Below, one piece after another: positions 379 to 16,891 of a DNA stretch of 39,615 bases. This DNA comes from Verrucomicrobiota bacterium (GTDB lineage: Bacteria; Verrucomicrobiota; Verrucomicrobiia; Limisphaerales; SIBE01): assembly GCA_027623095.1 (NCBI GenBank), contig JAQBVM010000020.1, positions 1 through 39,615 of the forward strand, in the 5' to 3' direction. Both the position numbers and the translations under genes were made by a program. Under the pieces are notes generated by a model, which was not told where the DNA came from, did no database searches, and saw only the letters and a list, made by a program, of their open reading frames with translations. Position 1 is the first letter of the stretch; each line of letters begins with the position of its first letter.

Positions 379-719
379 CGAATTCTGATTTCTATTGGTC
401 GATGGCAGGTTATTGAATCACAAGCTCAGTGATAACAACCTTTTTAATCCTCTCAGGATAGAGCAGCCCTGTCTTCCCTTCGTTCGCCTTGATTGGATTT
501 TGACATTTTGAACGACCGGCATTACAACGCCTCCAATGCAGGCTGCGGCCACTCCAAGCGCGGCGGCGATCTCGCTAAACAATAGCGCCAGCACTTTCTC
601 GGCAATTGGAATCTTCGGATTCTCCGCGCATTGACTCGTAATTTCGCATCTGAGTTCAAAACCGCCATATGGTTAACGTGCGAGTTCAGGGTTCCTTAGT
701 AGTTTTTTTCAGATGCGCC

Positions 720-1409
720 CTAAAAACCCAGAGAACTAGGCTGACGTTTGAGAGTTTCCGCGATGTTGTCTCGAGTGACAATCAGGGGATCGCCGGACTG
801 AAAATCCTCCACCACGGCTACCAAGAGCTTTTCCCGTTGAAACGCTTCCACGACTTTTGCGGGCGGACCCAGCAGGCGCAAATCGGGCAGGAGAAGCGCA
901 AAACACCTTGGGTCCTTCTCGTTCCAAATCTTTAGCCGATCCACTCCAACCGGCAGTCCGATCAAACTCACGATGACGCTGCATTCGGGATGCGCGCCGG
1001 CCAATTCGTCCACGGAGGCGGGCCGCACCACGAAGCTCAGGGGTGTCCGGGAATTGGACGGGATGATGACGGATTCGGGATTGGCTAAAAACTCCGGACG
1101 AATCTCCGGAAACACGACCTCCACAGTTGACTGTCCACCCAACCCCTTGCCCAGGCCACGAAGGCCGGCTCGCTCGTATCGGCTCTTTTCATCGAGATAC
1201 CCTGATTCCTTGGTGAACGGATTTGACAGCACGAGGACTTTGCATTCCGGACGCAGCTTGGCAATACGCGCTCCCAGCATCTCCATTGCATGCTGCCTTT
1301 TGGCCAAAGCGGCGCTCTTAGGGCCTGAGGGACGAACTTGAAAAACGAACGCCGCTACGACTACAGCCACCAATCCGAAGGTTGCGACGATGTTCCTCTT
1401 CGCGCTCAC
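720..1409 (-). CDS. Hypothetical protein with N-terminal membrane anchor
   Basis: 229-aa ORF; N-terminal hydrophobic segment ATFGLVAVVVAAFVFQV; no family recognised. Confidence 0.6.
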   Translation of the reverse strand: MSAKRNIVATFGLVAVVVAAFVFQVRPSGPKSAALAKRQHAMEMLGARIAKLRPECKVLVLSNPFTKESGYLDEKSRYERAGLRGLGKGLGGQSTVEVVFPEIRPEFLANPESVIIPSNSRTPLSFVVRPASVDELAGAHPECSVIVSLIGLPVGVDRLKIWNEKDPRCFALLLPDLRLLGPPAKVVEAFQREKLLVAVVEDFQSGDPLIVTRDNIAETLKRQPSSLGF

Positions 1410-1808
1410 TGGAAGTAACTGGGAATCTTGTCCGGGCCGAATAGTGCAGAAATGCCAGACTCTCCCGCCGTCATCGATTCAAGCGGATCAGCCCAAACAC
1501 CGAACGTGCTTATTGACTTTTTCAAGTGTTTGATAACGCCTCCACTTCAACTTCAAAGCGTTGAGTGTTTAGAGTGGTGTGAACCTAAGTCGGCCCAGGA
1601 TTCATGTCAAGTTCAGTGCCTTTTTGCATCGATTTCTGAGGGCCTTGCGGATTTTCGCTAACGCAGGGATGTGACTCTTTTGCCGGGCGACCATCCTTCG
1701 TTTTAACCAATCGGTCTCCGGTACCTTCTGAAAAAAGCGTTCCCTTCAGCCCCACTTTGGGCGAGCCTTGCGGTGCCTGTGCTACTGATTCAAACTGAAA
1801 CTTAGATC

Positions 1809-3215
1809 ATGGTATTTACGACTCAGATATTCGTCTTTTATTTTCTGCCGCTGTTTCTGCTGGTCTATTACAGCCTTCCTTTTCACCGGCGCAATGTCTG
1901 GATCACGCTGGGCAGTTATATCTTTTACGGTTGGTGGGAGCCGTGGTTCGCGTGCCTCATGCTTTTCACGACCGTTTTGGACTTCGTTTGGGGCAAAGTC
2001 ATCACTCGACCCGGCGCGACACGGGTTCAACGAAAATTCGCGGTTCTGGCCTGTGTGGTTACGAATCTGAGCTTCCTTGGATTCTTTAAATACTACATGT
2101 TCGCCGCCGAGACGCTAAACGAAATGCTCGCGGTAGTCGGCGCCCACCAATTCCGCGTGCTGCAAGTGGTTTTGCCCATTGGTATTTCTTTTTACACGTT
2201 TCATTCCCTGACTTACATCATCGATTTGTATCGCGGCCACGCCACACCGGCGAAGTCATTCTCGATGTTCTCTGCATTTGTGGCGTTGTTTCCGGACCTG
2301 GTGGCGGGGCCGATTATCCGCTACAAAACGCTGGCTGCACAGTTGCACGAGCGCGAACACACGGTGTCGCGGTTTGCTTCCGGCGTGGCAATTTTCATCG
2401 TTGGGTTTGCAAAGAAGATTCTGCTCGCCAATCCGTGCGGGTTGGTAGCGGACGCGGTGTTCAACGCTGCCAATCCGTGCGCGCTGGACGCCTGGGTCGG
2501 AGCTCTGGCTTACGCGTTCCAAATCTACTTCGACTTCTGCGGTTACTCGGACATGGCGGTGGGGCTGGGGCGGATGCTGGGATTCGAGTTTCTGAAGAAC
2601 TTTGACGCGCCGTACCGCTCGGAAAGCATCACGGACCTTTGGCGGCGCTGGCATATCTCGTTGTCCAGCGTGTTGCGGGACTATTTGTATATTGCGCTGG
2701 GTGGCAACCGGAAGGGAGAAGGGCGCACCTACTTCAATCTCATCGTGGTGATGCTTCTTGGAGGCTTGTGGCATGGAGCGAAGTGGAATTTTGTGTTGTG
2801 GGGTGCCTTCCACGGGTTGCTCTTGGCCGCCGAGAGATGGCGGGGCAAACGGAGTTTTTATGATGCGCTGCCGCGGCCGGGGCGAATCGCTCTTACTTTT
2901 CTCCTCATGCTGTTCTCCTGGGTTTTGTTCCGGGCCGACAATCTGACGGCGGCGACCGAGTATTTCCGGGCAATGCTCGGCCTCGATGCGGTCGGGAGCG
3001 TCGCACCGTTGCTTGGCGCGATGATTTACACACCGTACCATCTGCTCATTCTTGCTCTGTGCGCCGTGCTTCTATTCCAGCCGCTGCAAGCCCATGACTG
3101 GGCGCAGTCGGGAGTGACGTGGGTGCGGACCGCTTTGGTGGTGCCGCTGTTCGTCCTATCGCTCACTGCAATGTTCTCGCAAGCCTTCAACCCATTCCTC
3201 TATTTTCAGTTCTGA
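1809..3215 (+). CDS. MBOAT family O-acyltransferase (AlgI/DltB-like)
   Basis: 468 aa, polytopic; motifs LPIGISFYTFHSLTYIIDLYRG, DLWRRWHISLSSVLRDYLYIALGGNRKG, GGLWHGAKWNFVLWGAFHG. Confidence 0.93.
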   Translation: MVFTTQIFVFYFLPLFLLVYYSLPFHRRNVWITLGSYIFYGWWEPWFACLMLFTTVLDFVWGKVITRPGATRVQRKFAVLACVVTNLSFLGFFKYYMFAAETLNEMLAVVGAHQFRVLQVVLPIGISFYTFHSLTYIIDLYRGHATPAKSFSMFSAFVALFPDLVAGPIIRYKTLAAQLHEREHTVSRFASGVAIFIVGFAKKILLANPCGLVADAVFNAANPCALDAWVGALAYAFQIYFDFCGYSDMAVGLGRMLGFEFLKNFDAPYRSESITDLWRRWHISLSSVLRDYLYIALGGNRKGEGRTYFNLIVVMLLGGLWHGAKWNFVLWGAFHGLLLAAERWRGKRSFYDALPRPGRIALTFLLMLFSWVLFRADNLTAATEYFRAMLGLDAVGSVAPLLGAMIYTPYHLLILALCAVLLFQPLQAHDWAQSGVTWVRTALVVPLFVLSLTAMFSQAFNPFLYFQF

Positions 3216-3221
3216 GTTGCC

Positions 3222-4382
3222 ATGCACCGCCTCCGCAATCCTCAATGGATCTTGATCCTGATATTTCTTGGGATCATCGCCAGCGTGCCGTTAATCCAAA
3301 TCGTGATCGAATCCCGCCAGGACGACGGAGTGCGGGTGTTCGAAGTGTTCAGTCAAGCGCCCACCGCCGCCAACTTGCGCGCCTACGAGCGAGGCCTGGA
3401 AACAGCCAATTGGGCAGCAGGATTGAGCCGGCCTTGGATTCACTTCGCCCAGTTCGAGTGGCTCGAGGACGGCGGAGAAAAGGCAATGTTTGGACAGGCA
3501 GGATGGTATTTCTACAAACCCGGGCTGAATTATATGCTGGCTCGGCATCAGAGTGCGAAGGCGCCCGGCGACACGAATGATCCGATTGCGGCCATTGTGG
3601 ATTTTCGCGATCAACTCGCGGCGCGCGGCATCCACCTTCTGGTCATGCCCGTGCCGAACAAGGAAAGCATTTATCCGGACCGGTTGACCTTGCGGGCAAC
3701 GCCCCTGAGCGGTGTGATGGCGCCACGTACGCGAGAGGTGCTAGATATGCTTCGTGCCGCCAATGTCGAAGTCATCGACTTGTTCAACGAGTATGGCGAG
3801 GCGAGGCGGCAAACCCGTTCAACTCCCGAAGATTCCCTGTATCTGGCGCAAGACACGCATTGGTCGCCGGCCGGCGTCGATCTAGCGGCCAAGGCTGTGG
3901 CGCGTCGACTCGAGGAATTGGGTTGGGCGCAGCCCGGCCAAGTTGATTACAGCGGACGCTCCGCGCACGTGCAGCGGCTGGGTGACATATTGCGCATGAT
4001 GCAGGTGCCGATGATCGAGCGACGAATGGATCCCGAAACCGTGCCGTGTGTTCAGATGGTTCGAAGCGACAACGGCGAGCTCTACAAGGATGCCCCGACC
4101 GCAGAGATTCTCGTGCTTGGAGACAGCTTCATGCGGATTTATCAGCAGGACGAACCGACGGCTGCGGGTTTTATCGCGCACCTGGCCAAAGAGCTCAAAC
4201 AACCGTTGATCTCGTTGGTCAACGATGGGGGAGGATCCACGCTCGTGCGACAGGAGCTTCGCGCGCGTCCCGCGTTCCTCAAGAACAGGAAGGTGGTTCT
4301 CTGGGAATTTGTGGAAAGAGACATCGGACTCGGCCTCGAAGGCTGGAGGCTCGTGCCGCTGCCTCAAGGTTTCGGTGGCTGA
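3222..4382 (+). CDS. AlgX/AlgJ-like SGNH-type O-acetyltransferase partner protein
   Basis: 386 aa, N-terminal TM; VMPVPNKESIYPDRL, DTHWSPAGVDLAA, ILVLGDSFMRIYQ; directly follows MBOAT gene. Confidence 0.85.
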   Translation: MHRLRNPQWILILIFLGIIASVPLIQIVIESRQDDGVRVFEVFSQAPTAANLRAYERGLETANWAAGLSRPWIHFAQFEWLEDGGEKAMFGQAGWYFYKPGLNYMLARHQSAKAPGDTNDPIAAIVDFRDQLAARGIHLLVMPVPNKESIYPDRLTLRATPLSGVMAPRTREVLDMLRAANVEVIDLFNEYGEARRQTRSTPEDSLYLAQDTHWSPAGVDLAAKAVARRLEELGWAQPGQVDYSGRSAHVQRLGDILRMMQVPMIERRMDPETVPCVQMVRSDNGELYKDAPTAEILVLGDSFMRIYQQDEPTAAGFIAHLAKELKQPLISLVNDGGGSTLVRQELRARPAFLKNRKVVLWEFVERDIGLGLEGWRLVPLPQGFGG

Positions 4383-4383
4383 T

Positions 4384-4881
4384 TTAGATTCCCCGGCGCG
4401 TAGAGTCCAAGGGTGTCCGGGAGAGCGTTCGCAATTCCTCTGCCAGGATCGCCTCGGCTTTCTCGTCCTCGATCTCCCGTCGTTCCTCGCCGTAATGGTT
4501 GGCACCCATTTGTTCCGACAACTGTCCCAGCAACTCCTTCCGGAACTTCTTGTCGCCCCAGCACCACCCACGCCAAATTGATCGGTAAATCTTCTCTTTG
4601 GCGCTATGCCTCCTTTGCTCCATCAACCCTTCGAAATACTCCCTGCCCGCCTTCGTATCTCGGCCAATGCCGCTCTCCCCCAATACGCGATCCACTCGCA
4701 GCCACACCGCCCGCTTCCGCGCCGGCTGCAAATACGCCGCAAAACTGCTCGAGCGATAACTCTTGAGCCCTTGATCCGCTCCGATCAACCTCGCCCGCAC
4801 CGGGTTCAAATGGACGTACTGGCAAGCCGTTCTCAAATACCCTCGCCGTTCCCATCGACCACCAGCGATTTGTAGTGCCGG
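4384..4881 (-). pseudogene. REP-associated tyrosine transposase (RAYT, Y1_Tnp) remnant: frameshifted and truncated at both ends
   Basis: RTACQYVHLNPVRARLIGADQGLKSYRSSSFAAYL is RAYT-like; preceding HYKSLVVDGNGEG is in another frame, with the frameshift near 4837-4842; homology ends at the 192-bp repeat (4881). Confidence 0.85.
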
Positions 4882-5072
4882 AAAGTAGTTGCAAAACTAA
4901 TCCTGTTCGCTATTCATTGCGACTGTCGATCTTTTGGAGGCGCTGGGGGGTGCCTCTTAACGGAGACGACTGGTTCAAAGGGCAGTCCTCGGACAATCCT
5001 GAGATGCCGTCTTGGTCAGTCCGGAGGTTTTTATGGCACGGGCCTTGGAGCAAATTTCTGGCATGGCAGGCG
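4881..5072 (+). repeat. 192-bp direct repeat copy 1 (truncated duplicate of AraC-like gene promoter and 5' end)
   Basis: Matches 5939-6130 with one mismatch (4947 G vs 6005 A), offset 1058. Confidence 0.97.
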
Positions 5073-5077
5073 TGAAG

Positions 5078-5105
5078 GGGGTCAACCCATAGCAAGGTTC
5101 GTTTT
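5078..5105 (-). repeat. REP-like motif copy A (AACGAACCTTGCTATGGGTTGACCC)
   Basis: Reverse complement matches motif at 5275-5298 and 19561-19584. Confidence 0.7.
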
Positions 5106-5109
5106 TCAT

Positions 5110-5215
5110 CATTTAAAAGTTTGCCTTTTGGTGAATCGGATCGCTCTGTCTTCCCCATCGAGGGGCGCAAGCGAGTGGCGATCCCTTTGATCGACAGCGC
5201 CAGGATATTCAACCC
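5110..5215 (-). pseudogene. RAYT C-terminal tail fragment
   Basis: Minus-strand LSIKGIATRL..MGKTERSDSPKGKL resembles LSIKMIAARL...WMGKTDRSQSPKGQF at 19437-19551, with an internal deletion. Confidence 0.6.
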
Positions 5216-5274
5216 GCAACTTCCATGGGATGGGGCGATTTGCACTACCTTCCTGATGTTGTCGTCAACCCCAA

Positions 5275-5322
5275 TAATGAACCATGCTATGGGTTGCCCT
5301 TTTCCTTGGGTTGCCCTTTTCC
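5275..5322 (+). repeat. REP-like motif copy B with tandem GGGTTGCCCTTTTCCT
   Basis: TGAACCATGCTATGGGTTGCCCTTTTCCTTGGGTTGCCCTTTTCCT; shares core with copies A and C. Confidence 0.7.
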
Positions 5323-5479
5323 TGACGACAATTCGAACGTCTTTTCCTGCCCTCCGCTCCTCGTTCCCTGGCGCAGGTTGGTTTGTCGATGATGAGGTCA
5401 AGATTCGAATCAACATGTTCGCAGAGCGGCCCGGTCGTGCGACCGTTTGCGAATCGCAGTGTTGAAGGTAGTGTTCCTC

Positions 5480-5698
5480 ATGATCTTGATCCGTTTTCCA
5501 AACGAAGAGGCCAAGGACCGCGCCTTGGAATTGCTCTTGGGCGACCACCCGCTGAAGTCGTGGCAGAGCGGCGAATTGCTGGTGCCGGAGGAAGCGCTGC
5601 TGCTTTTGGCGCGGGAGAATGTGCCGTTCGTGTTCGAAGGGGTGGAGGCGTATGAGAGAGTATTAGCGGTTCGAGATCCTTCTCCCGCGACGGTTTAA
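5480..5698 (+). CDS. Small conserved-looking hypothetical protein
   Basis: MILIRFPNEEAKDRALELLLGDHPLKSWQSGELLVPEEALLLLARENVPFVFEGVEAYERVL, within ORF 5447..5698. Confidence 0.5.
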   Translation: MILIRFPNEEAKDRALELLLGDHPLKSWQSGELLVPEEALLLLARENVPFVFEGVEAYERVLAVRDPSPATV

Positions 5699-5915
5699 CG
5701 ACGGTCGCCGGGTTCCGCCGGAACGGCTAAGACAGACCCTCCGAGAACTTGAGGCTCGTTTCGGGGCGGTTTCCGCAGAACGTCAAACCATCGTTGGCCT
5801 GAGCACCCCTCGCGACGATGCCGCCCTGGAACATCTTTGTGCCGAACTGACCGAGACCGAAACAAAATATCCGGGAACCGAACTGCGCCTCATCTACCGA
5901 AAAGTGTCCCTTTGA
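5652..5915 (+). pseudogene. Hypothetical protein ORF interrupted by in-frame TAG at codon 5
   Basis: ATG AGA GAG TAT TAG CGG TTC GAG ATC CTT...; then open RFEILLPRRFNDGRRVPPERLRQTLRELEARFG...LRLIYRKVSL to TGA at 5913-5915; no ATG/GTG/TTG just after the stop. Confidence 0.55.
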
Positions 5916-5938
5916 TTTCCGCCGAAGTCTGGTGCTCT

Positions 5939-6130
5939 GAAAGTAGTTGCAAAACTAATCCTGTTCGCTATTCATTGCGACTGTCGATCTTTTGGAGGCG
6001 CTGGAGGGTGCCTCTTAACGGAGACGACTGGTTCAAAGGGCAGTCCTCGGACAATCCTGAGATGCCGTCTTGGTCAGTCCGGAGGTTTTTATGGCACGGG
6101 CCTTGGAGCAAATTTCTGGCATGGCAGGCG
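5939..6130 (+). repeat. 192-bp direct repeat copy 2
   Basis: See 4881-5072. Confidence 0.97.
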
Positions 6131-6480
6131 AGGACGCCTGGATCGCAAGGGCGCAATCTTCCACATATCGGTCGCAGACTCTCGCGCAGATTTGCCAGAT
6201 TTCAACGCGTCATCTCCGTCGCTGCTTTCAACAGCGCTTCGGACGCAGCCCGCAGGATTGGCTGGACGAGAAGCGGATGCTGGCGGCGGGTCCGCTGCTG
6301 AGGAAGGTGCGTTGCGTGAAGCTAGCGGCCTACGAACTCGGCTTCAAGCAAGTCTCACATTTCAGCCGAGTGTTCAAGGAGTTCTACGGCATCAATCCCA
6401 CCGCGTTTCTAATGCTGCCCTTGAAAGTAATTTCCATGTCGGAATGTCCGCCAGAGATAACGAATGTCCGCGCCAGATAA
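6091..6480 (+). CDS. Short AraC-type helix-turn-helix protein
   Basis: LAQICQISTRHLRRCFQQRFGRSPQDWLDEKRM...VKLAAYELGFKQVSHFSRVFKEFYGINPTAF; GGAGG upstream of ATG 6091 (ORF track start 6070). Confidence 0.85.
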   Translation: MARALEQISGMAGEDAWIARAQSSTYRSQTLAQICQISTRHLRRCFQQRFGRSPQDWLDEKRMLAAGPLLRKVRCVKLAAYELGFKQVSHFSRVFKEFYGINPTAFLMLPLKVISMSECPPEITNVRAR

Positions 6481-6558
6481 CACTTCACAATTGAGGGAGA
6501 ACCACGGAGCGCTACTCTGGGTCAGCAAGGTTCAAGGAATTTCAATCGACTGAGCTCA

Positions 6559-7293
6559 ATGGTTGAGAGTTTTGGCATATTTGTTGTCTGCGGCATGCGG
6601 TGCGGATTTTCTGAGTCCACCGATGTTCAGTTCGGTCTCCCCTGGAATGAGAAGAGTGGGCGAAAAAAGCGTTTATTGTCACGGTTCGGGACGACAGCGC
6701 GCGACGTTTTCTTTTGGAGAAACCTCGTCTTGATCATCTCAGCCTGCCTTCTCTCCGGCTGTACCTGGCGAACCCGTCAGGCAGACTACCTTCTCGGCCC
6801 GGTTCGGTATCGCTTTTCCGAACCTTCCACCGAAAAGGCGGCTGTATTTCAATCGGTACATTTCCCCGTGCTCATTGAGGGAGGGAGCCAGTGGGGTGTC
6901 AGCATTGGCGGTATTCAGAGGCTGGCCTTGTCTTCCGCCCGTTTCGATTCTGTCGATCCGGCGGCCGATGTGCATGCAACACCGCGCGGCTGGTTAATTC
7001 ATCCGCAACCTCGCCGCTGGCAATGGTCGTGGATCTATTTGCGCGCCCCGTTGCGCGGGCGGCCGGAATTCATCCGCCGCAGCATGGTGGGAGTGCAGGG
7101 AGGCGCAGGCGGTGAGGAGCGGGCGATTTCGCTAGGATATTCGAGCGTCACCATGATGAGGCCGCGACTAGAGGCGCTCTACCATTTTGATTTCGACAGC
7201 CGCCGACCATTGGATGCCGTGCTCGTTGCGAATCCAGTGGAAAGGACCGAAGAAACCCAGGAGCAACCATTCACCAAGAGAAAAATACCATGA
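6559..7293 (+). CDS. Putative lipoprotein of unknown function; true start may be downstream
   Basis: Hydrophobic segment plus lipobox NLVLIISACLLSGC; stop overlaps next start (ATGA). Confidence 0.75.
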   Translation: MVESFGIFVVCGMRCGFSESTDVQFGLPWNEKSGRKKRLLSRFGTTARDVFFWRNLVLIISACLLSGCTWRTRQADYLLGPVRYRFSEPSTEKAAVFQSVHFPVLIEGGSQWGVSIGGIQRLALSSARFDSVDPAADVHATPRGWLIHPQPRRWQWSWIYLRAPLRGRPEFIRRSMVGVQGGAGGEERAISLGYSSVTMMRPRLEALYHFDFDSRRPLDAVLVANPVERTEETQEQPFTKRKIP

Positions 7294-7721
7294 CGAAGAA
7301 AGTCAGACCCAGGCGCCTCAGCGCCATCAATCTAGTCGTCGGATTCTCGCTGCTCGCGATCAGCAGCGGGTGCAAAAACCACCTGGCTTTTGGCACCGCC
7401 ACCAAGTTTGGTTTGGACATAAGCCAAAAGGCCGATCAGACAATCGACGTGACCATGGGCTACCGCCGCGCGGAAATGGCGAGCATTCCTGTGCCCGGCG
7501 ATGCAGATGCGGATGGCACCCAGGACGTTTATTCAGTGCTGGGCCGTTTCACCGTTAGCTATGGCGATCCTTTCAAGCAGGGGACGAACGATGGTCTGCA
7601 TCTCAGACAATTCTTCGCCACGGGCATGGCGGCGCGGATCGCAGCAACAAATTCTGATATGCGACACGCTTTCGGCGAAGCCGCCAGCAAAGTGAAGGCG
7701 AAGGAAGAAGGAGGAAAATGA
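7290..7721 (+). CDS. Putative lipoprotein, paralogous to the next gene
   Basis: INLVVGFSLLAISSGC lipobox; ATGA overlaps on both sides. Confidence 0.8.
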   Translation: MTKKVRPRRLSAINLVVGFSLLAISSGCKNHLAFGTATKFGLDISQKADQTIDVTMGYRRAEMASIPVPGDADADGTQDVYSVLGRFTVSYGDPFKQGTNDGLHLRQFFATGMAARIAATNSDMRHAFGEAASKVKAKEEGGK

Positions 7722-8554
7722 TGAAAATGTTCACCTCCGCTCTCTTTCTTGCCTTGTTGATCGGAATCGTCGGCGGTTCGGGTTCCGGGTGTGCCCGTCG
7801 CATGACCGTGGCGACAGGAACTATAATCGGACTGCATGCAACGCCGGGCGATGGCCAGAGCCAACTCCCGCAGGTCACTTTCGCTTACAAGCGGGCGGAA
7901 CTCGCACTGGTCCCCACGGCCGGGAAGTCCGCATCGAGTAATCCGAACTCGGATGCCTTTTCCGCGCTGGCCATCATTGATTTCCGCACAAAATGGTTCC
8001 GTGGCACATCAATTGACCAGTTCATCGCCACTGGTCACGCGTCACGAGACATTCAAGAACCAGGTTCGGAGTTCACCAGAGCGCTCGCGAAGGAAGGAGG
8101 CCGCGACTTCGTGGTCGCCACCCATATTTATACGGCCTTAGTTGGTAAAGCGGCGGCCGGTGACGCCGTCGCCGCAGCGCGAGTGCGCGACTTGGACGCG
8201 CTTAGTGAACTCGTGCCCGGCGGATACATTTGGCTGGAACCCATCGCTGTTCCGCCACCTCCGGCATTCGCACATTACCAGCGCAGATCTGGACCCACAA
8301 ATCCAGTTCAGGGCTATAACTTGTTCACCACATACCGCCAGGACGTGATCGGATCGATCAGTGGACTCAAGAGGGGGCCAACCCTGACCGTGACAGAACT
8401 GGACAACACCACCGTTACGACGCTTACAGGCGCCGCCCTACAGCGCGAACTCGGCGGACAGGAAAGCGCTTTTGAAATCCTAAGGCAACGCGCTGCGGAA
8501 ACGGCTGCGACATCCCGGGCGCTTAGTTATTACATAGACACTCTAAAGCAGTAA
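7718..8554 (+). CDS. Putative lipoprotein
   Basis: Signal and lipobox LLIGIVGGSGSGC; central region aligns with 7290-7721 product (FAYKRAELALVP / MGYRRAEMASIPV; QFIATGHASR / QFFATGMAAR). Confidence 0.8.
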   Translation: MMKMFTSALFLALLIGIVGGSGSGCARRMTVATGTIIGLHATPGDGQSQLPQVTFAYKRAELALVPTAGKSASSNPNSDAFSALAIIDFRTKWFRGTSIDQFIATGHASRDIQEPGSEFTRALAKEGGRDFVVATHIYTALVGKAAAGDAVAAARVRDLDALSELVPGGYIWLEPIAVPPPPAFAHYQRRSGPTNPVQGYNLFTTYRQDVIGSISGLKRGPTLTVTELDNTTVTTLTGAALQRELGGQESAFEILRQRAAETAATSRALSYYIDTLKQ

Positions 8555-8592
8555 CAAACTCAAAGGAACCCACGTTAACAGAAAGTTAGATT

Positions 8593-8772
8593 ATGGCTGA
8601 CGATTCCAAACACGATCTTACCACCATTGGAAAGATTGCGGAAACTTCACAGGATCGGCGCGATGCGATGAACATTTGCCTGACGCAGTACTGGTTGAAA
8701 GAAGACATTCAGAAACTAGAACGCCGCGACCAGCCGGCTTGGAATGGATGGGACATGTGGCGAAGAAATTGA
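8593..8772 (+). CDS. Small 59-aa protein (not in supplied ORF track)
   Basis: MADDSKHDLTTIGKIAETSQDRRDAMNICLTQYWLKEDIQKLERRDQPAWNGWDMWRRN*; lies between co-directional genes. Confidence 0.55.
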   Translation: MADDSKHDLTTIGKIAETSQDRRDAMNICLTQYWLKEDIQKLERRDQPAWNGWDMWRRN

Positions 8773-8893
8773 CGGACGCTGTAGTCCCATCGCCCAGAGA
8801 TGCGGTCGGCGTCGCGCCGGCATCGGGGTCTGCGTCGGAGAGAGTTCGAGAATCCTTCGGCGAGTGTCCGACCGACATCTCTCCTTCTGCCGC

Positions 8894-10249
8894 ATGAGGA
8901 CGGAGTTTCAAATGCGTATCTCATACAACTTTTCGGTGATCAGTGCCGCCTTTTTGATGGGGCTGACCCTGGTCAAGGCTGCCGAAACGCCACCTAGATT
9001 CGAGACTGCTCGGATTGCCCCTGGCGTGATTATGCCGGAGAAGCTTGGGAAAAAGTATTTCTCATATTTCTCAAGACATTCAGTCATCGCCGACGAACTG
9101 GAGAGACTGATTCCCACAAAGTTTTCCCTGATTCTGAATGGAATCGAATTGGCCCGAACCGAGGTCCAGTTCACCCAAGATGATCCTCCAACTCCCGAGC
9201 GTGACCAACTCGGACAAGTGTTTGTCAGGCACGAAGGAAAATGGGTCGTAATGTGGCTGCCAGTGGATGGGTATCATGGGCGCGTCGAGGTGCAACTGCG
9301 ACTGGACGACCGGCTGTCCAGACCCTACGAAATCGTCGTTTCTCAGGTTACTCGTTGGGCCATCGCTGGGATCACCCTGGCGGTCACGGCCGTCATTTTC
9401 GGAATCCCTCTTTGGATGATCGGCCGAATCAAAAGCGCTCATACGATCGGCAGCAGTTCCTGTTCATTGTGGACCGTTTTGCTTCTCGACCAGGAGACGG
9501 ACACCTACAGCTTGTCCAAATTCCAGTTTCTCGTTTGGACCTTGGTATCGCTTTTCGGTTATACCTTTCTGACCCTTTCCCGAAGTCTGGTGCACGGCAC
9601 TTTTGAAATGGCGAACCTTCCAGAGAATCTGGCGGGGCTTCTCGCAATTAGCGCCGGCACCGGCATTGTTGCGCCCGCGATTTCCGCGGTGAATGGATCC
9701 AAAGGTGCGGGACAAATCAATCCCAGTTTTGCCGATCTAGTGACCACCGGCGGGGTAGTGGTGGCGGAACGCTTTCAGTTTGCTGTTTGGACCCTCATGG
9801 GCAGTGCAACTTTTCTCTTCTTGGTCGTGGGTATCGACCCCCGATCGCTGAAGGATTTGCCGTCCATCCCAACGGGCTTTATGCAATTGATGGGGATTAG
9901 TTCCCTGGGATATCTCGGAGGAAAGCTCGCCCGAAAGCCCGGCCCAATCATTGATCAAATTGCTCCGGTTGCGCCGATTGGGCCCAAGCTCACGTTGACT
10001 ATCACGGGGCGAAAACTTTCAAAGACCGCTGGGTTCAAGATCGATGGCGCGGAAGTTCAGGCAGCCGTGCATAGTCATGCGGTCACGGGCACAGCTATAC
10101 CGGACGAACAATCCGTGCCGCCGGATTTGTTCAAAAGCCTGACACTCGACGTCCTTCAACCCACTGCGGACTGGCTTAAATCAGGAGATCACACGCTCAC
10201 GATCATCAATGCAGACGGACAAAGCGCTGAGTGGATGTTCAAGATATGA
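8894..10249 (+). CDS. Membrane protein with putative C-terminal IPT/TIG-like domain
   Basis: Signal/TM at N-term, several TMs, LLLDQETDTYSLSKFQFLVWTLVSLFGYTFLTLSRSLV; Ig-like C-term LTLTITGRKLSKTAGFKIDG...HTLTIINADGQSAEWMFKI. Confidence 0.75.
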   Translation: MRTEFQMRISYNFSVISAAFLMGLTLVKAAETPPRFETARIAPGVIMPEKLGKKYFSYFSRHSVIADELERLIPTKFSLILNGIELARTEVQFTQDDPPTPERDQLGQVFVRHEGKWVVMWLPVDGYHGRVEVQLRLDDRLSRPYEIVVSQVTRWAIAGITLAVTAVIFGIPLWMIGRIKSAHTIGSSSCSLWTVLLLDQETDTYSLSKFQFLVWTLVSLFGYTFLTLSRSLVHGTFEMANLPENLAGLLAISAGTGIVAPAISAVNGSKGAGQINPSFADLVTTGGVVVAERFQFAVWTLMGSATFLFLVVGIDPRSLKDLPSIPTGFMQLMGISSLGYLGGKLARKPGPIIDQIAPVAPIGPKLTLTITGRKLSKTAGFKIDGAEVQAAVHSHAVTGTAIPDEQSVPPDLFKSLTLDVLQPTADWLKSGDHTLTIINADGQSAEWMFKI

Positions 10250-11970: not shown

Positions 11971-12212
11971 AATCCGCGAGAGCGCGCTCGATCAGTTCAA
12001 TCTTGCCAAAGATCGGGGACGCTACTATGCTCCTTCCCGATTCAAAAGCAGCGGAATCCTTTCAATTTGGATAAGGGCTCATTGCATGCCTGGGTGTCAA
12101 TAGCCAGGCAAGTGGGCGTGAATAAACCTTGGGTGATCAAAACAACATCGAGACACGATTCCCGTTTTCCCGAACAACGGAGTCGCCGTCTCAATCCACA
12201 GGCGTGCTTCAT

Positions 12213-14243
12213 ATGGCTATTCGTAATTCGCCACCGGCCGGAATTACATTCCTGCTGATTCTTATCAGCCTTCAGTTCCACACCGCATCCTCACAGGCGG
12301 ATGACCTCGTCCCAAGGCAGCCAGAAACCTCCCGACTCGCGGATCTAAGCCTTTCCGACCTGCTTCAGTTAACCATCACCTCTGTCTCTAAAAAGGAGGA
12401 AAACGCTTCGGAAGCGCCGGCCTCGGTTTACGTGTTGACGCAGGAGGACATTCATCGCGGTGGGCTATTAAGCGTTCCCGAGGCTTTGCGAATGGTCCCC
12501 GGGATGGATGTCGCGCGGATCAACGCAAATCAATGGGCCATCAGCGCCCGTGGATTCAACAGTCGTTACGCGAACAAGCTGCTGGTCCTGATGGACGGTC
12601 GAAGCGTTTATACGCCCCTTTTTGGCGGCGTTCGATGGGATATTCAAGATCCCTTGCTGGAAGATCTCGACCGGATTGAAATCATTCGCGGGCCTGGCGC
12701 AACGCTATGGGGCGCCGACGCGGTCAACGGAGTGATAAATATCATAAGCAAAAACGCGAGTGACACCCAGGGCGCCTTGATCAGCGGCGGCGGCGGTTCG
12801 GAGGACCGGGGATTCGGGGCCGTCCGCTATGGAGGCAAGATCAATGACCAAACTTACTACCGGGTCTATGGCAAGTATTTCGACACGGACGATACAGTCG
12901 ATGCCGCCGGGCAGGACTCATACGATGCATGGAATCTTTTTCGCACCGGCTTCCGACTGGATTGGAAACCGTCATCGGAAAACAGCGTCACCTTGCTTGG
13001 CGACTATTATTCAGGCACCACCCACGAATCGACGCCGACAAATTTCGTCGCTCTTTCGATGCTGCCGTTTTTTCAGAACGATCTGACTGGCGGGAATATT
13101 CTGGGACGTTGGAAACACAGCTTTTCGGACGCATCCGAACTCACGTACCAGATGTATTACGACCACGCCGAGCGGCGGAGTTCAGCTTTTTCGGAAACTA
13201 TCGATACGTTTGACATTGACGCCCATCATCAATTCGAACTTGGCGAACGCAACGAGGTAACGTGGGGCTTGGGATATCGCTTGATCCACGATGACCTAAT
13301 GGCCGGCTCCTTTTCCACGTATGATCCGGACAGCGCGGATCGGACCGTCTTCAGCGCCTTCGCCCAGGATGAGATCAGTATCGTGCCGGATCGACTGCGG
13401 CTGAGCCTTGGTTCGAAGTTCGAGCACAACCAATACAGCGGTCTCGAAATCCAACCGGCGGCGCGGATCGCGTTCACGCCGCGGCCAAAGCACACTTTTT
13501 GGTCCGCGATCTCCCGTGCCGTAAGAACGCCGTCCAGGTTCGAGAACGACGCGCGACAGACCATCCTCTTTTTTCCCGGCGCCGATGTCTCCACGCGGTT
13601 GGATTTGGTTTACAATCGGGAATTGCGGCCCGAGGAGTTGCTCGCCTACGAAGTCGGATATCGAGTGATGCCGCGGCCTGATGTGTCGCTGGACCTTGCC
13701 CTGTTTTACAATGTTTACAACAATCTGGGCACCTTCGAACCGCTTCCCGCTTCGTCACTCTCGGGATCGCGACCGCCCGTGTTGATCATTCCACTTCAGT
13801 TTGACAATGGGATGAATGGCGAAACCTTCGGAGCCGAGGTGTCGGCAAAATGGCAAATCACCGATCATTGGAGAACCAGCGCTGGCTACACGTGGCTGAA
13901 GATGCAGTTGCACCTCGATCCATCGAGCCTCGACACCACTTCGGAACTGGCCGAGGGCGATTCTCCTCAACATCAATTCCAGGTTCGGTCGCTGCTCGAT
14001 CTTCCGTGGAATCTGCAGTTTGACACGGCGGTTTACTACGTCGATCGGCTGGCGCGACAGGGGGTCGCCGGATACACCCGTCTCGACGCGCGAGTCGGAT
14101 GGCGCCCTGTCAAGAATCTGGATGTGAGCGTCGGAATGCAGAATTTGCTCGACGACCGCCATTCGGAATTCGGCCAACTTCAAGGTGTGGCTTCGACAGA
14201 AATCCAACGCAGTTTTTATGGAAAGGTGACCTGGCGCTATTAG
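12213..14243 (+). CDS. TonB-dependent outer membrane receptor (start assigned at MAIRNS; ORF opens at 12129)
   Basis: Plug: VYVLTQEDIHRGGLLSVPEALRMVPGMDVARI...GPGATLWGADAVNGVINIISKNA; barrel to ...FYGKVTWRY. Confidence 0.95.
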   Translation: MAIRNSPPAGITFLLILISLQFHTASSQADDLVPRQPETSRLADLSLSDLLQLTITSVSKKEENASEAPASVYVLTQEDIHRGGLLSVPEALRMVPGMDVARINANQWAISARGFNSRYANKLLVLMDGRSVYTPLFGGVRWDIQDPLLEDLDRIEIIRGPGATLWGADAVNGVINIISKNASDTQGALISGGGGSEDRGFGAVRYGGKINDQTYYRVYGKYFDTDDTVDAAGQDSYDAWNLFRTGFRLDWKPSSENSVTLLGDYYSGTTHESTPTNFVALSMLPFFQNDLTGGNILGRWKHSFSDASELTYQMYYDHAERRSSAFSETIDTFDIDAHHQFELGERNEVTWGLGYRLIHDDLMAGSFSTYDPDSADRTVFSAFAQDEISIVPDRLRLSLGSKFEHNQYSGLEIQPAARIAFTPRPKHTFWSAISRAVRTPSRFENDARQTILFFPGADVSTRLDLVYNRELRPEELLAYEVGYRVMPRPDVSLDLALFYNVYNNLGTFEPLPASSLSGSRPPVLIIPLQFDNGMNGETFGAEVSAKWQITDHWRTSAGYTWLKMQLHLDPSSLDTTSELAEGDSPQHQFQVRSLLDLPWNLQFDTAVYYVDRLARQGVAGYTRLDARVGWRPVKNLDVSVGMQNLLDDRHSEFGQLQGVASTEIQRSFYGKVTWRY

Positions 14244-14283
14244 GGTCAGAGCCGCGCTAGAATCATTGCCGCCGAATCAAGAC

Positions 14284-14865
14284 ATGAAAGGCCGGAAACC
14301 CATGGAAACCGTTTGGAGCGTTTTTTATTGCGTTTGCCTGTTTTTTTCATGTGCCACGACGCAGGGTGCCGAACGGATCTCCGCGACCGAGTATCAAGCA
14401 AAAGCCGCCTTTCTGTATCAATTGGCGAAGTTCGTCGAGTGGCCAGTGGCGACTTTCTTGGACGCGGACTCGCCAATCACGATTGGCATTTTCGGAACGG
14501 ATCCGTTCGGATCCGATTTGGAGACCGTGATTGGGGAGCGGACCGCCAAACGTCGGCGGTTTCGGATTAAGCGGTTCTCCGAACCGCGGGAGGCGAAAGG
14601 CTGCCAGATTCTCTTTATTCCAGCCGGGGAAGAACGCCGCTGGAACGAAGTTCTCCAGGAAATCGCGGCGCTCAGCGTATTGACGGTCGGGGAAACCTCC
14701 CGCTTTGTCAGCGCCGGCGGGATCATTGGCCTGATTCCCGCGAAGAACCGCCTTAGCATTACGGTGAATCTCCAATCCGCCGAACGCGCTCATCTGATTC
14801 TGAGTTCCCAACTGTTGGGCGTTTCCAAGGTTCGCGAAACCCGGCAAGCCGGGGAGAAAAACTGA
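14284..14865 (+). CDS. YfiR family (DUF4154) protein
   Basis: EYQAKAAFLYQLAKFVEWP...ITIGIFGTDPFG...CQILFIPAGEE...VLTVGETSRFVSAGGIIGLI. Confidence 0.92.
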   Translation: MKGRKPMETVWSVFYCVCLFFSCATTQGAERISATEYQAKAAFLYQLAKFVEWPVATFLDADSPITIGIFGTDPFGSDLETVIGERTAKRRRFRIKRFSEPREAKGCQILFIPAGEERRWNEVLQEIAALSVLTVGETSRFVSAGGIIGLIPAKNRLSITVNLQSAERAHLILSSQLLGVSKVRETRQAGEKN

Positions 14866-14866
14866 A

Positions 14867-16891
14867 ATGCAATTGGGCCGCGCCATTCCGCTCGATCGAA
14901 AGTTGATGTTGGTCATCATGGCGACCACCGGCGCGGCTCTTCTGCTCGCCTGCGCTGGCTTTGTCGGTTACGAGATTCTTGATGCGCGGCGCACATTTCC
15001 CTCGAGGTTGACCGCTTTGGCGGAGATGATTGGAACCAACTCAAAGGGCGCCATCTCTTTCAATGATCGCGCCCAGGCGGAGGAGACGCTGGCAACGCTG
15101 CGGGCACAGGCGCAAATTGTCGCGGCGTGCGTCTATTTGCCAACCGGCGAGGTATTCGCAAAGTATCCCAATGCCGGGCTTGCCTCGGAGTTTTCGCCTC
15201 CGAAAATGGAAGCGGACGGCTATCATTTTCAGGACCATCGATTGGCACTGTTTCATCAAATTCTTTTTGACGGGGAATGGATCGCCACGGTTTATATCGA
15301 GTCAGATTTGGCGTTGATGTATGAGCGCATGCGGCGTTATGGGGCGATCGCATCGATCGTATTGCTGACTTCCCTGCTCTTCGCGCTCATTCTTTCCATC
15401 CGGCTTCGCCGCATTATCTCCGAGCCCATCCTCCGGCTGGCGCTGACCGCTCAAAGCGTTGCCACCGACAAAGACTATTCCGTTCGTGCTACCGGGGAGA
15501 ATGAGGATGAACTCGGCAGGCTGATCAAAGGTTTCAACGAAATGCTGCTTCAAATCCAGGTGCGGGACGACGCCCTTCGACAAGCCCATGACGACTTGGA
15601 AAAGCGCGTCAATGAACGGACAACCGCCCTTTCCCAGGCGAACAAACAACTGGAGAGGGAAGTCGAAGAGCGAAAAATCGCCCAGGAAAAACACCGTCTT
15701 CTTGAGGACCAACTGCGCCAATCTCAAAAAATGGAGGCCGTTGGAACATTGGCGGCGGGGGTGGCGCACGATTTCAACAATCTCTTGACCATCATTCTAG
15801 GATTCAACGATCTGGCCCTCAGGGACAATCGGCTTCATCCGGAAATTGGGAAAGCCCTGAACAAAATATCCGCAGCCGCCGAGCGCGCCACCACATTGAC
15901 GCGGCAACTCCTGACCTTCGGACGCAAGCAAGTCATGCAGTTGAAATTTCTCAATCTGAACGACGTCGTTACCCAGGTCATGCGAATGCTTGTGAGAATG
16001 ATCGAGGAGAACATCTCTGTGGAGTACAACCACGCACTCCGGCTTCCCAGGATCCGGGCGGACGCCGGAATGATGGATCAGTTGATCGCAAATCTTGTGG
16101 TGAATGCCCGGGACGCCATGCCTGGTGGCGGGCGTTTGACCATTAGTACGCAATCTATCGAGATTTCCCAGGATTACGCGGATACAAACCCGGAGGCCGT
16201 CACCGGGAATTTCGTCCGCCTGTCCGTTTCCGATACCGGCTGCGGAATGGAACCTCAAACAATCGAGAGAATCTTCGAACCGTTTTTCACAACCAAGGAA
16301 GTTGGAAAGGGTACCGGCTTGGGCCTGGCGACCGTGTATGGCATTGTCAAGCAACACCATGGCTGGATTGAGGTGTCCAGCCAACCCGAACTTGGATCGA
16401 CATTTCAGATTTACTTTCCCGCGCTTGCGGAAACTTTGAGCGACGTGCCCGACGTCAGCGTCATTGATCCGGAGATTTCTGGCGGAACAGAAACTATTCT
16501 GATTGTCGAAGACGAAACCGCCCTTCGGCAACTCGCTCGGACCATTCTTGAAAACTACGGCTATACGGTCTTGGAGGCGGAAAACGCGGCCGACGCATTG
16601 GCGCTTTGGCGGAAACACCGGCAGAACGTGCACTTGGTTCTCACGGATATCATTATGCCTGGGACAATGAACGGACTCGAATTGGCGTCCCAATTGCGTG
16701 AGGAAAAGGACTCTCTTCACGTAATCTGCACCAGCGGTTACGGTCTGGAAGTCGTGGGTCCCGACATCGGAAGCGTTGACGGTTTGAACTTCCTGTCCAA
16801 ACCCTACACTCCAGCGACATTGGCACGTGCCGTCCGTTGTTCGTTGGATGGGGAGCCATTTGAAATCCTAACTCAAATCTCGAAATCGTGA
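14867..16891 (+). CDS. Hybrid sensor histidine kinase (CHASE8-like sensor, HAMP, HisKA, HATPase, REC)
   Basis: GTLAAGVAHDFNNLLTIILG; NLVVNARDAMPGGGRL; GTGLGLATVYGIVKQHHGWIEVSS; ILIVEDETALRQL...LVLTDIIMPG. Confidence 0.95.
   Translation: MQLGRAIPLDRKLMLVIMATTGAALLLACAGFVGYEILDARRTFPSRLTALAEMIGTNSKGAISFNDRAQAEETLATLRAQAQIVAACVYLPTGEVFAKYPNAGLASEFSPPKMEADGYHFQDHRLALFHQILFDGEWIATVYIESDLALMYERMRRYGAIASIVLLTSLLFALILSIRLRRIISEPILRLALTAQSVATDKDYSVRATGENEDELGRLIKGFNEMLLQIQVRDDALRQAHDDLEKRVNERTTALSQANKQLEREVEERKIAQEKHRLLEDQLRQSQKMEAVGTLAAGVAHDFNNLLTIILGFNDLALRDNRLHPEIGKALNKISAAAERATTLTRQLLTFGRKQVMQLKFLNLNDVVTQVMRMLVRMIEENISVEYNHALRLPRIRADAGMMDQLIANLVVNARDAMPGGGRLTISTQSIEISQDYADTNPEAVTGNFVRLSVSDTGCGMEPQTIERIFEPFFTTKEVGKGTGLGLATVYGIVKQHHGWIEVSSQPELGSTFQIYFPALAETLSDVPDVSVIDPEISGGTETILIVEDETALRQLARTILENYGYTVLEAENAADALALWRKHRQNVHLVLTDIIMPGTMNGLELASQLREEKDSLHVICTSGYGLEVVGPDIGSVDGLNFLSKPYTPATLARAVRCSLDGEPFEILTQISKS

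Follow-up and report, generated by a model that had tools for sequence, protein, structure and literature searches.

Five adjacent open reading frames (ORFs), here called G1 to G5, occupy positions 6559-10249 on the forward strand of a 39,615-nucleotide stretch of Verrucomicrobiota DNA (hereafter the window), and they raise the question of whether such a run encodes one envelope assembly or genes of different origin. The initial annotation had suggested that the run might specify a surface-exposed multi-protein assembly. Our analysis divides the run: two lipoprotein families, LpA and LpB, make up a cassette whose conservation extends over two phyla, and the membrane protein attached to it in the window belongs to a family of its own, likewise unnamed.

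Pfam, NCBIfam and PHROGs offered no meaningful match for any of the five proteins, the sequence of G5 had no significant match in the PDB, and a literature search returned nothing relevant. Nothing was found in plasmids with single sequences (G1, G2, G3 and one LpB homologue), in phages and viral contigs with the single G5 sequence, or in viral contigs with the LpB and G5 profiles.

Organization of the locus

The first three ORFs, G1 (6559-7293), G2 (7290-7721) and G3 (7718-8554), are joined by ATGA overlaps and each holds a lipobox-like cysteine, as had been proposed: LLSGC in G1 (Cys codon 6760), AISSGC in G2 (Cys codon 7371) and SGSGC in G3 (Cys codon 7790), the last being a poor consensus with a glycine at position -3. 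The lipobox cysteine of G1 is residue 68 of a 244-aa ORF; read from the TTG at 6676, the lipoprotein signal is normal, and G1 is probably shorter than its ORF, with this TTG as the true start. The 59-aa ORF G4 (8593-8772) does exist between G3 and G5, but its coding status is uncertain, since the coding evidence is weak (G+C by codon position 0.52/0.42/0.55, no clear SD site) and no homologue of it was found. G5 (8912-10249) most likely starts at the ATG at 8912, after GAGGACGGAG, which would make the product 445 aa long and provide it with a clear Sec signal peptide, MRISYNFSVISAAFLMGLTLVKA; the ORF start at 8744, which overlaps G4 in a different frame, is most likely an artefact. The codon-position G+C of G1, G2, G3 and G5 is like that of coding DNA.

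The gene downstream of G5 is a GFO/IDH/MocA ORF on the opposite strand. Upstream of G1, an ORF with an AraC-type HTH (6070-6480, forward strand; Pfam HTH_18, E = 4e-21) is a possible regulator. Its 5' part is entered by the second copy of a 192-bp direct repeat, 99% identical, whose copies (4881-5072 and 5939-6130) lie 1058 bp apart.

A two-family lipoprotein cassette

G2 and G3 had been taken for paralogs, and BLASTP agrees (30% over 92 aa, pairwise E = 2e-8). A profile of the two picked up two order-mates, a four-sequence LpB profile placed the family in eight genomes of the order besides that of the window (one partial match left out), and a 15-domain profile found it in 4 of the 198 genomes searched in a second phylum; no LpB was found in the 134 genomes searched in the phylum to which the genome of locus L011 belongs. 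T33, R59, E61, P66 and G106 (G3 numbering) are invariant across 20 LpB domains, and G2 and G3 both show the family features, namely the lipobox cysteine, T-x-T/S-x-x-G, GYxRxExxxxP and QxFATGxAA; their LpB HMM scores, 148 bits for G2 and 130 bits for G3, are those of sequences that belong to the model itself. The family takes the form of one domain, a fused double (L072, L073, L075, L085, L086) or tandem genes, as in L074, L076 and the window, where the single-domain G2 is followed by G3 with its helical C-terminal extension. Lipobox-like signals are evident in most LpB loci.

When each of the 20 aligned LpB members was scanned, Pfam had no match and NCBIfam had two, each to a single member: TraV-like (0.0023) and YgdI/YgdR (0.0035), both above 1e-3. 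The AlphaFold model of G3, four long strands followed by helices, is poor (mean pLDDT 58, pTM 0.32) and matched no solved fold; neither the LpB profile nor the G5 profile picked up a relative among solved structures. LpB is a real family without a library name. A partial LpB match in genome G004 (L078, 7e-5) was taken as chance; near it, at 1921-3830, RebB-like and DUF4157-like proteins were seen by eye. In L056 (8642-9713), a frameshift separates the two domains of the G1232 LpB gene, reflecting decay or an assembly error.

On reading the LpB loci, a second lipoprotein family, LpA, was noticed directly upstream. A five-protein LpA HMM that did not include L073 recognized that locus at 3.6e-38, and a six-protein HMM matched the unseen loci L085 (4e-21), L087 (3e-10), L086 (7e-8) and L088 (2.5e-4). 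Almost every locus has LpA ahead of LpB, generally as overlapping genes, with the LpA stop running into the LpB start in most of them: by profile, LpA stands directly 5' of LpB in 10 of the 12 other loci, and the two remaining ones carry LpA-like frames upstream, scoring 0.0083 in L074 and recognized by eye in L076, where the slot holds a doubled LpA-like lipoprotein.

In the window, this slot is occupied by G1. Against the six-sequence LpA HMM it scores 9.6 bits, a value reached by none of 500 shuffles; against a ten-sequence HMM the score is a marginal 5.7 bits (1 of 2000 shuffles; E = 1.4 among frames). Because of this marginal score, G1 is named LpA by its position, which is a strong argument, and not by its sequence, which is a weak one. 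Like the L076 protein, G1 seems to hold two LpA-like segments. When the mature parts of LpA and LpB were aligned with hhalign, the score was 19.8, against at most 11.1 in 196 of 200 column shuffles, the other four reaching about 130 through a short-alignment artefact; homology between the two families may be taken as a lead.

On balance, we consider G1-G2-G3 to be probably an instance of a conserved, unnamed two-family cassette, formed by LpA, one or two LpB domains and often a small ORF. Such an ORF lies 3' of LpB in half of the other loci (6 of 12), these ORFs having no evident similarity to one another. As two phyla share the gene order and LpA-LpB is claimed by no known system, the case for an undescribed lipoprotein cassette is supported, and the early impression that no characterized pathway matches still stands. 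Generic paired outer-membrane lipoprotein operons also have adjacent, overlapping small lipoprotein genes, but we found no sequence relation between LpA-LpB and the lipoprotein families of Pfam or NCBIfam.

The G5 membrane protein family

G5 is predicted to comprise the Sec signal, an extracytoplasmic N-terminal domain, five TM helices (about 9353-9427, 9512-9595, 9623-9694, 9764-9832 and 9872-9931) and a C-terminal β-sandwich (about 9947-10240), in an AlphaFold model with a mean pLDDT of 67.6 and a pTM of 0.63; the alignment used for the prediction left out the Rhizobium and Polymorphobacter rows. The family signature YSLSKFQFLVWT (9506-9541, forward strand) lies at the beginning of the second TM helix, and S200, L201, Q205 and W209 are invariant in 14-15 members, the invariant columns having been read from the family alignments. 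G5 has the family features SL...Q...W and R.Q...W before TM helices and G...Y near the last helix.

The C-terminus had been described as Ig/TIG-like. The predicted β-sandwich is shared with IPT/TIG or Ig-like proteins and its Foldseek matches are weakly Ig-like (E about 1e-2), but no IPT/TIG family of Pfam or NCBIfam matches; the relatives of G5 share an NPDGQxA-like end. A Foldseek match to a Kir channel (rmsd 22) is not meaningful. The C-terminal domain is predicted to be cytosolic and not exposed at the surface: a cleaved signal peptide followed by five helices would put it on that side of the membrane, in agreement with the charges, KLARK following the last helix (positive-inside rule).

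A first genome scan of sampled relatives with G5 found nothing, because one sequence was too narrow a probe, and in a phylum sample G5 itself was the sole match above chance, weaker ones (E about 1e-3) being taken as chance. The route to the family was a tblastn match on a Rhizobium plasmid, which led to a Polymorphobacter relative and to a small alignment that found seven loci in other groups. The closest relatives (37-40% identity) are in L011, L012 and L013, from two Acidobacteria and one genome deposited as Proteobacteria. Directly 3' of each stands a gene for a GH46 + PG_binding_1 protein (L011 11383-12411, L012 3781-4722 and L013 11289-12218) with no evident signal peptide at its start; membrane protein and hydrolase form an unnamed conserved pair in these three genomes. 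With the protein just upstream of the enzyme G5 shares a YSLSKFQF...GYLGGKxARKPGP core; unlike these pairs, the window has no GH46 gene downstream of G5, its whole genome gave no GH46 (PF01374) match, and LpA-LpB is present instead. Distant members occur in five further genomes of the sample around the L011 genome and in seven further genomes of the sample around a Bradyrhizobium genome. Their neighbours, where read, vary; a Trypsin_2 + PDZ protein comes after the Bradyrhizobium member, and patatin also occurs near G5 relatives.

Possible roles of the cassette

The likeliest reading is a lipoprotein complex at the envelope. LpA and LpB would be co-translated in a near-fixed ratio, lipidated and, the bacteria being diderm, targeted to the outer membrane, where they would bind each other, perhaps through their long β-hairpins (GYxRxExxxxP; QxFATGxAA), with a stoichiometry perhaps set by LpB domain duplication. 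More weakly, we infer from the gene neighbourhoods that the complex might anchor, chaperone or restrain a variable envelope partner whose gene is adjacent, and perhaps serve exchangeable partners. Candidates are a class-3 lipase (Lipase_3) in L056; a papain-like protease (Peptidase_C1) in L073, where, in a gene set spanning 712-6808, it follows LpA-LpB and precedes a large protein with HEAT repeats and a marginal match to AAA; a candidate trypsin-like protease, seen by eye, in L077; and a DUF4337 membrane protein in L072 (profile test) and L075 (similarity). An SGNH-like protein was also noticed by eye in L076, and the L073 gene set, with its protease and HEAT-repeat protein, resembles conflict-type gene sets. 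In the present genome, the partner slot might be filled by G5, whose relatives elsewhere adjoin the GH46 + peptidoglycan-binding hydrolase. As the neighbours of LpA-LpB vary and no hydrolase was recognized near it in L085-L088, few cases stand behind the partner idea.

An alternative is that LpA-LpB is a plain structural or stress-related pair of envelope lipoproteins, unconnected to hydrolases, and that G5 is unrelated, two units lying side by side. We regard it as quite possible, if short of probable. G5 relatives were found in none of the eight LpB-bearing genomes of the order, the LpB profile A2 had no convincing match in genomes or records holding G5 relatives (best E 0.13), and LpB neighbours change from locus to locus; on the other side, G3, G4 and G5 are closely spaced on the same strand with no promoter-like site found in the intervals among them, a weak test. 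Since G5 relatives and LpB were not seen together anywhere else, it may be by chance that the two are neighbours in the window. G5 represents a different, patchy five-helix family, and the single five-gene assembly first envisaged is reduced to a two-family core, G1-G2-G3, with local additions, because neighbours vary and G5 does not accompany LpB, while G4 has no homologue. The homologues are scattered in one part of the run only: the LpA-then-LpB order is kept in two phyla, whereas that of LpB and G5 is not.

At the other extreme, LpA-LpB could be a modular adaptor plugged into different envelope-attacking or membrane enzymes in different bacteria, with G5, from a family otherwise paired with cell-wall hydrolases, taking that place here, and constitute a new envelope conflict or enzyme-control module, which seems to us unlikely. 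Similarly doubtful is an effector-immunity or defence-type module, in which the lipoproteins would protect against an envelope-attacking enzyme or hold it inactive. The lipase of L056, the protease and HEAT/AAA protein of L073 and the candidate protease of L077 near LpA-LpB speak for it, as do GH46 + PG_binding_1, patatin and Trypsin_2/PDZ near G5 relatives, but G1, G2, G3 and G5 had no match among the PADLOC anti-phage defence models, the gene run of the window has no enzyme gene, its genome lacks a GH46 match, and there is no mobile-element evidence. Envelope lipoproteins do occur in secretion and assembly machines (T6SS, Tad, T9SS or similar), yet it is highly improbable that LpA-LpB belongs to such a machine, given the lack of a library match and of any recognized core machine gene in the neighbourhood lists inspected.

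Two widely spread lipoprotein families and one membrane family, all unnamed, now have profiles and conserved residues; together with the conserved gene order, these make function directly testable, and annotation pipelines could name genes now called hypothetical.

Elsewhere in the window, a TonB-dependent receptor, a YfiR/HmsC-like protein and what looks by eye like a histidine kinase with a receiver domain follow one another at 12129-16891, and an MBOAT and AlgX-like SGNH pair at 1809-4382 is a probable polysaccharide O-acetylation unit.
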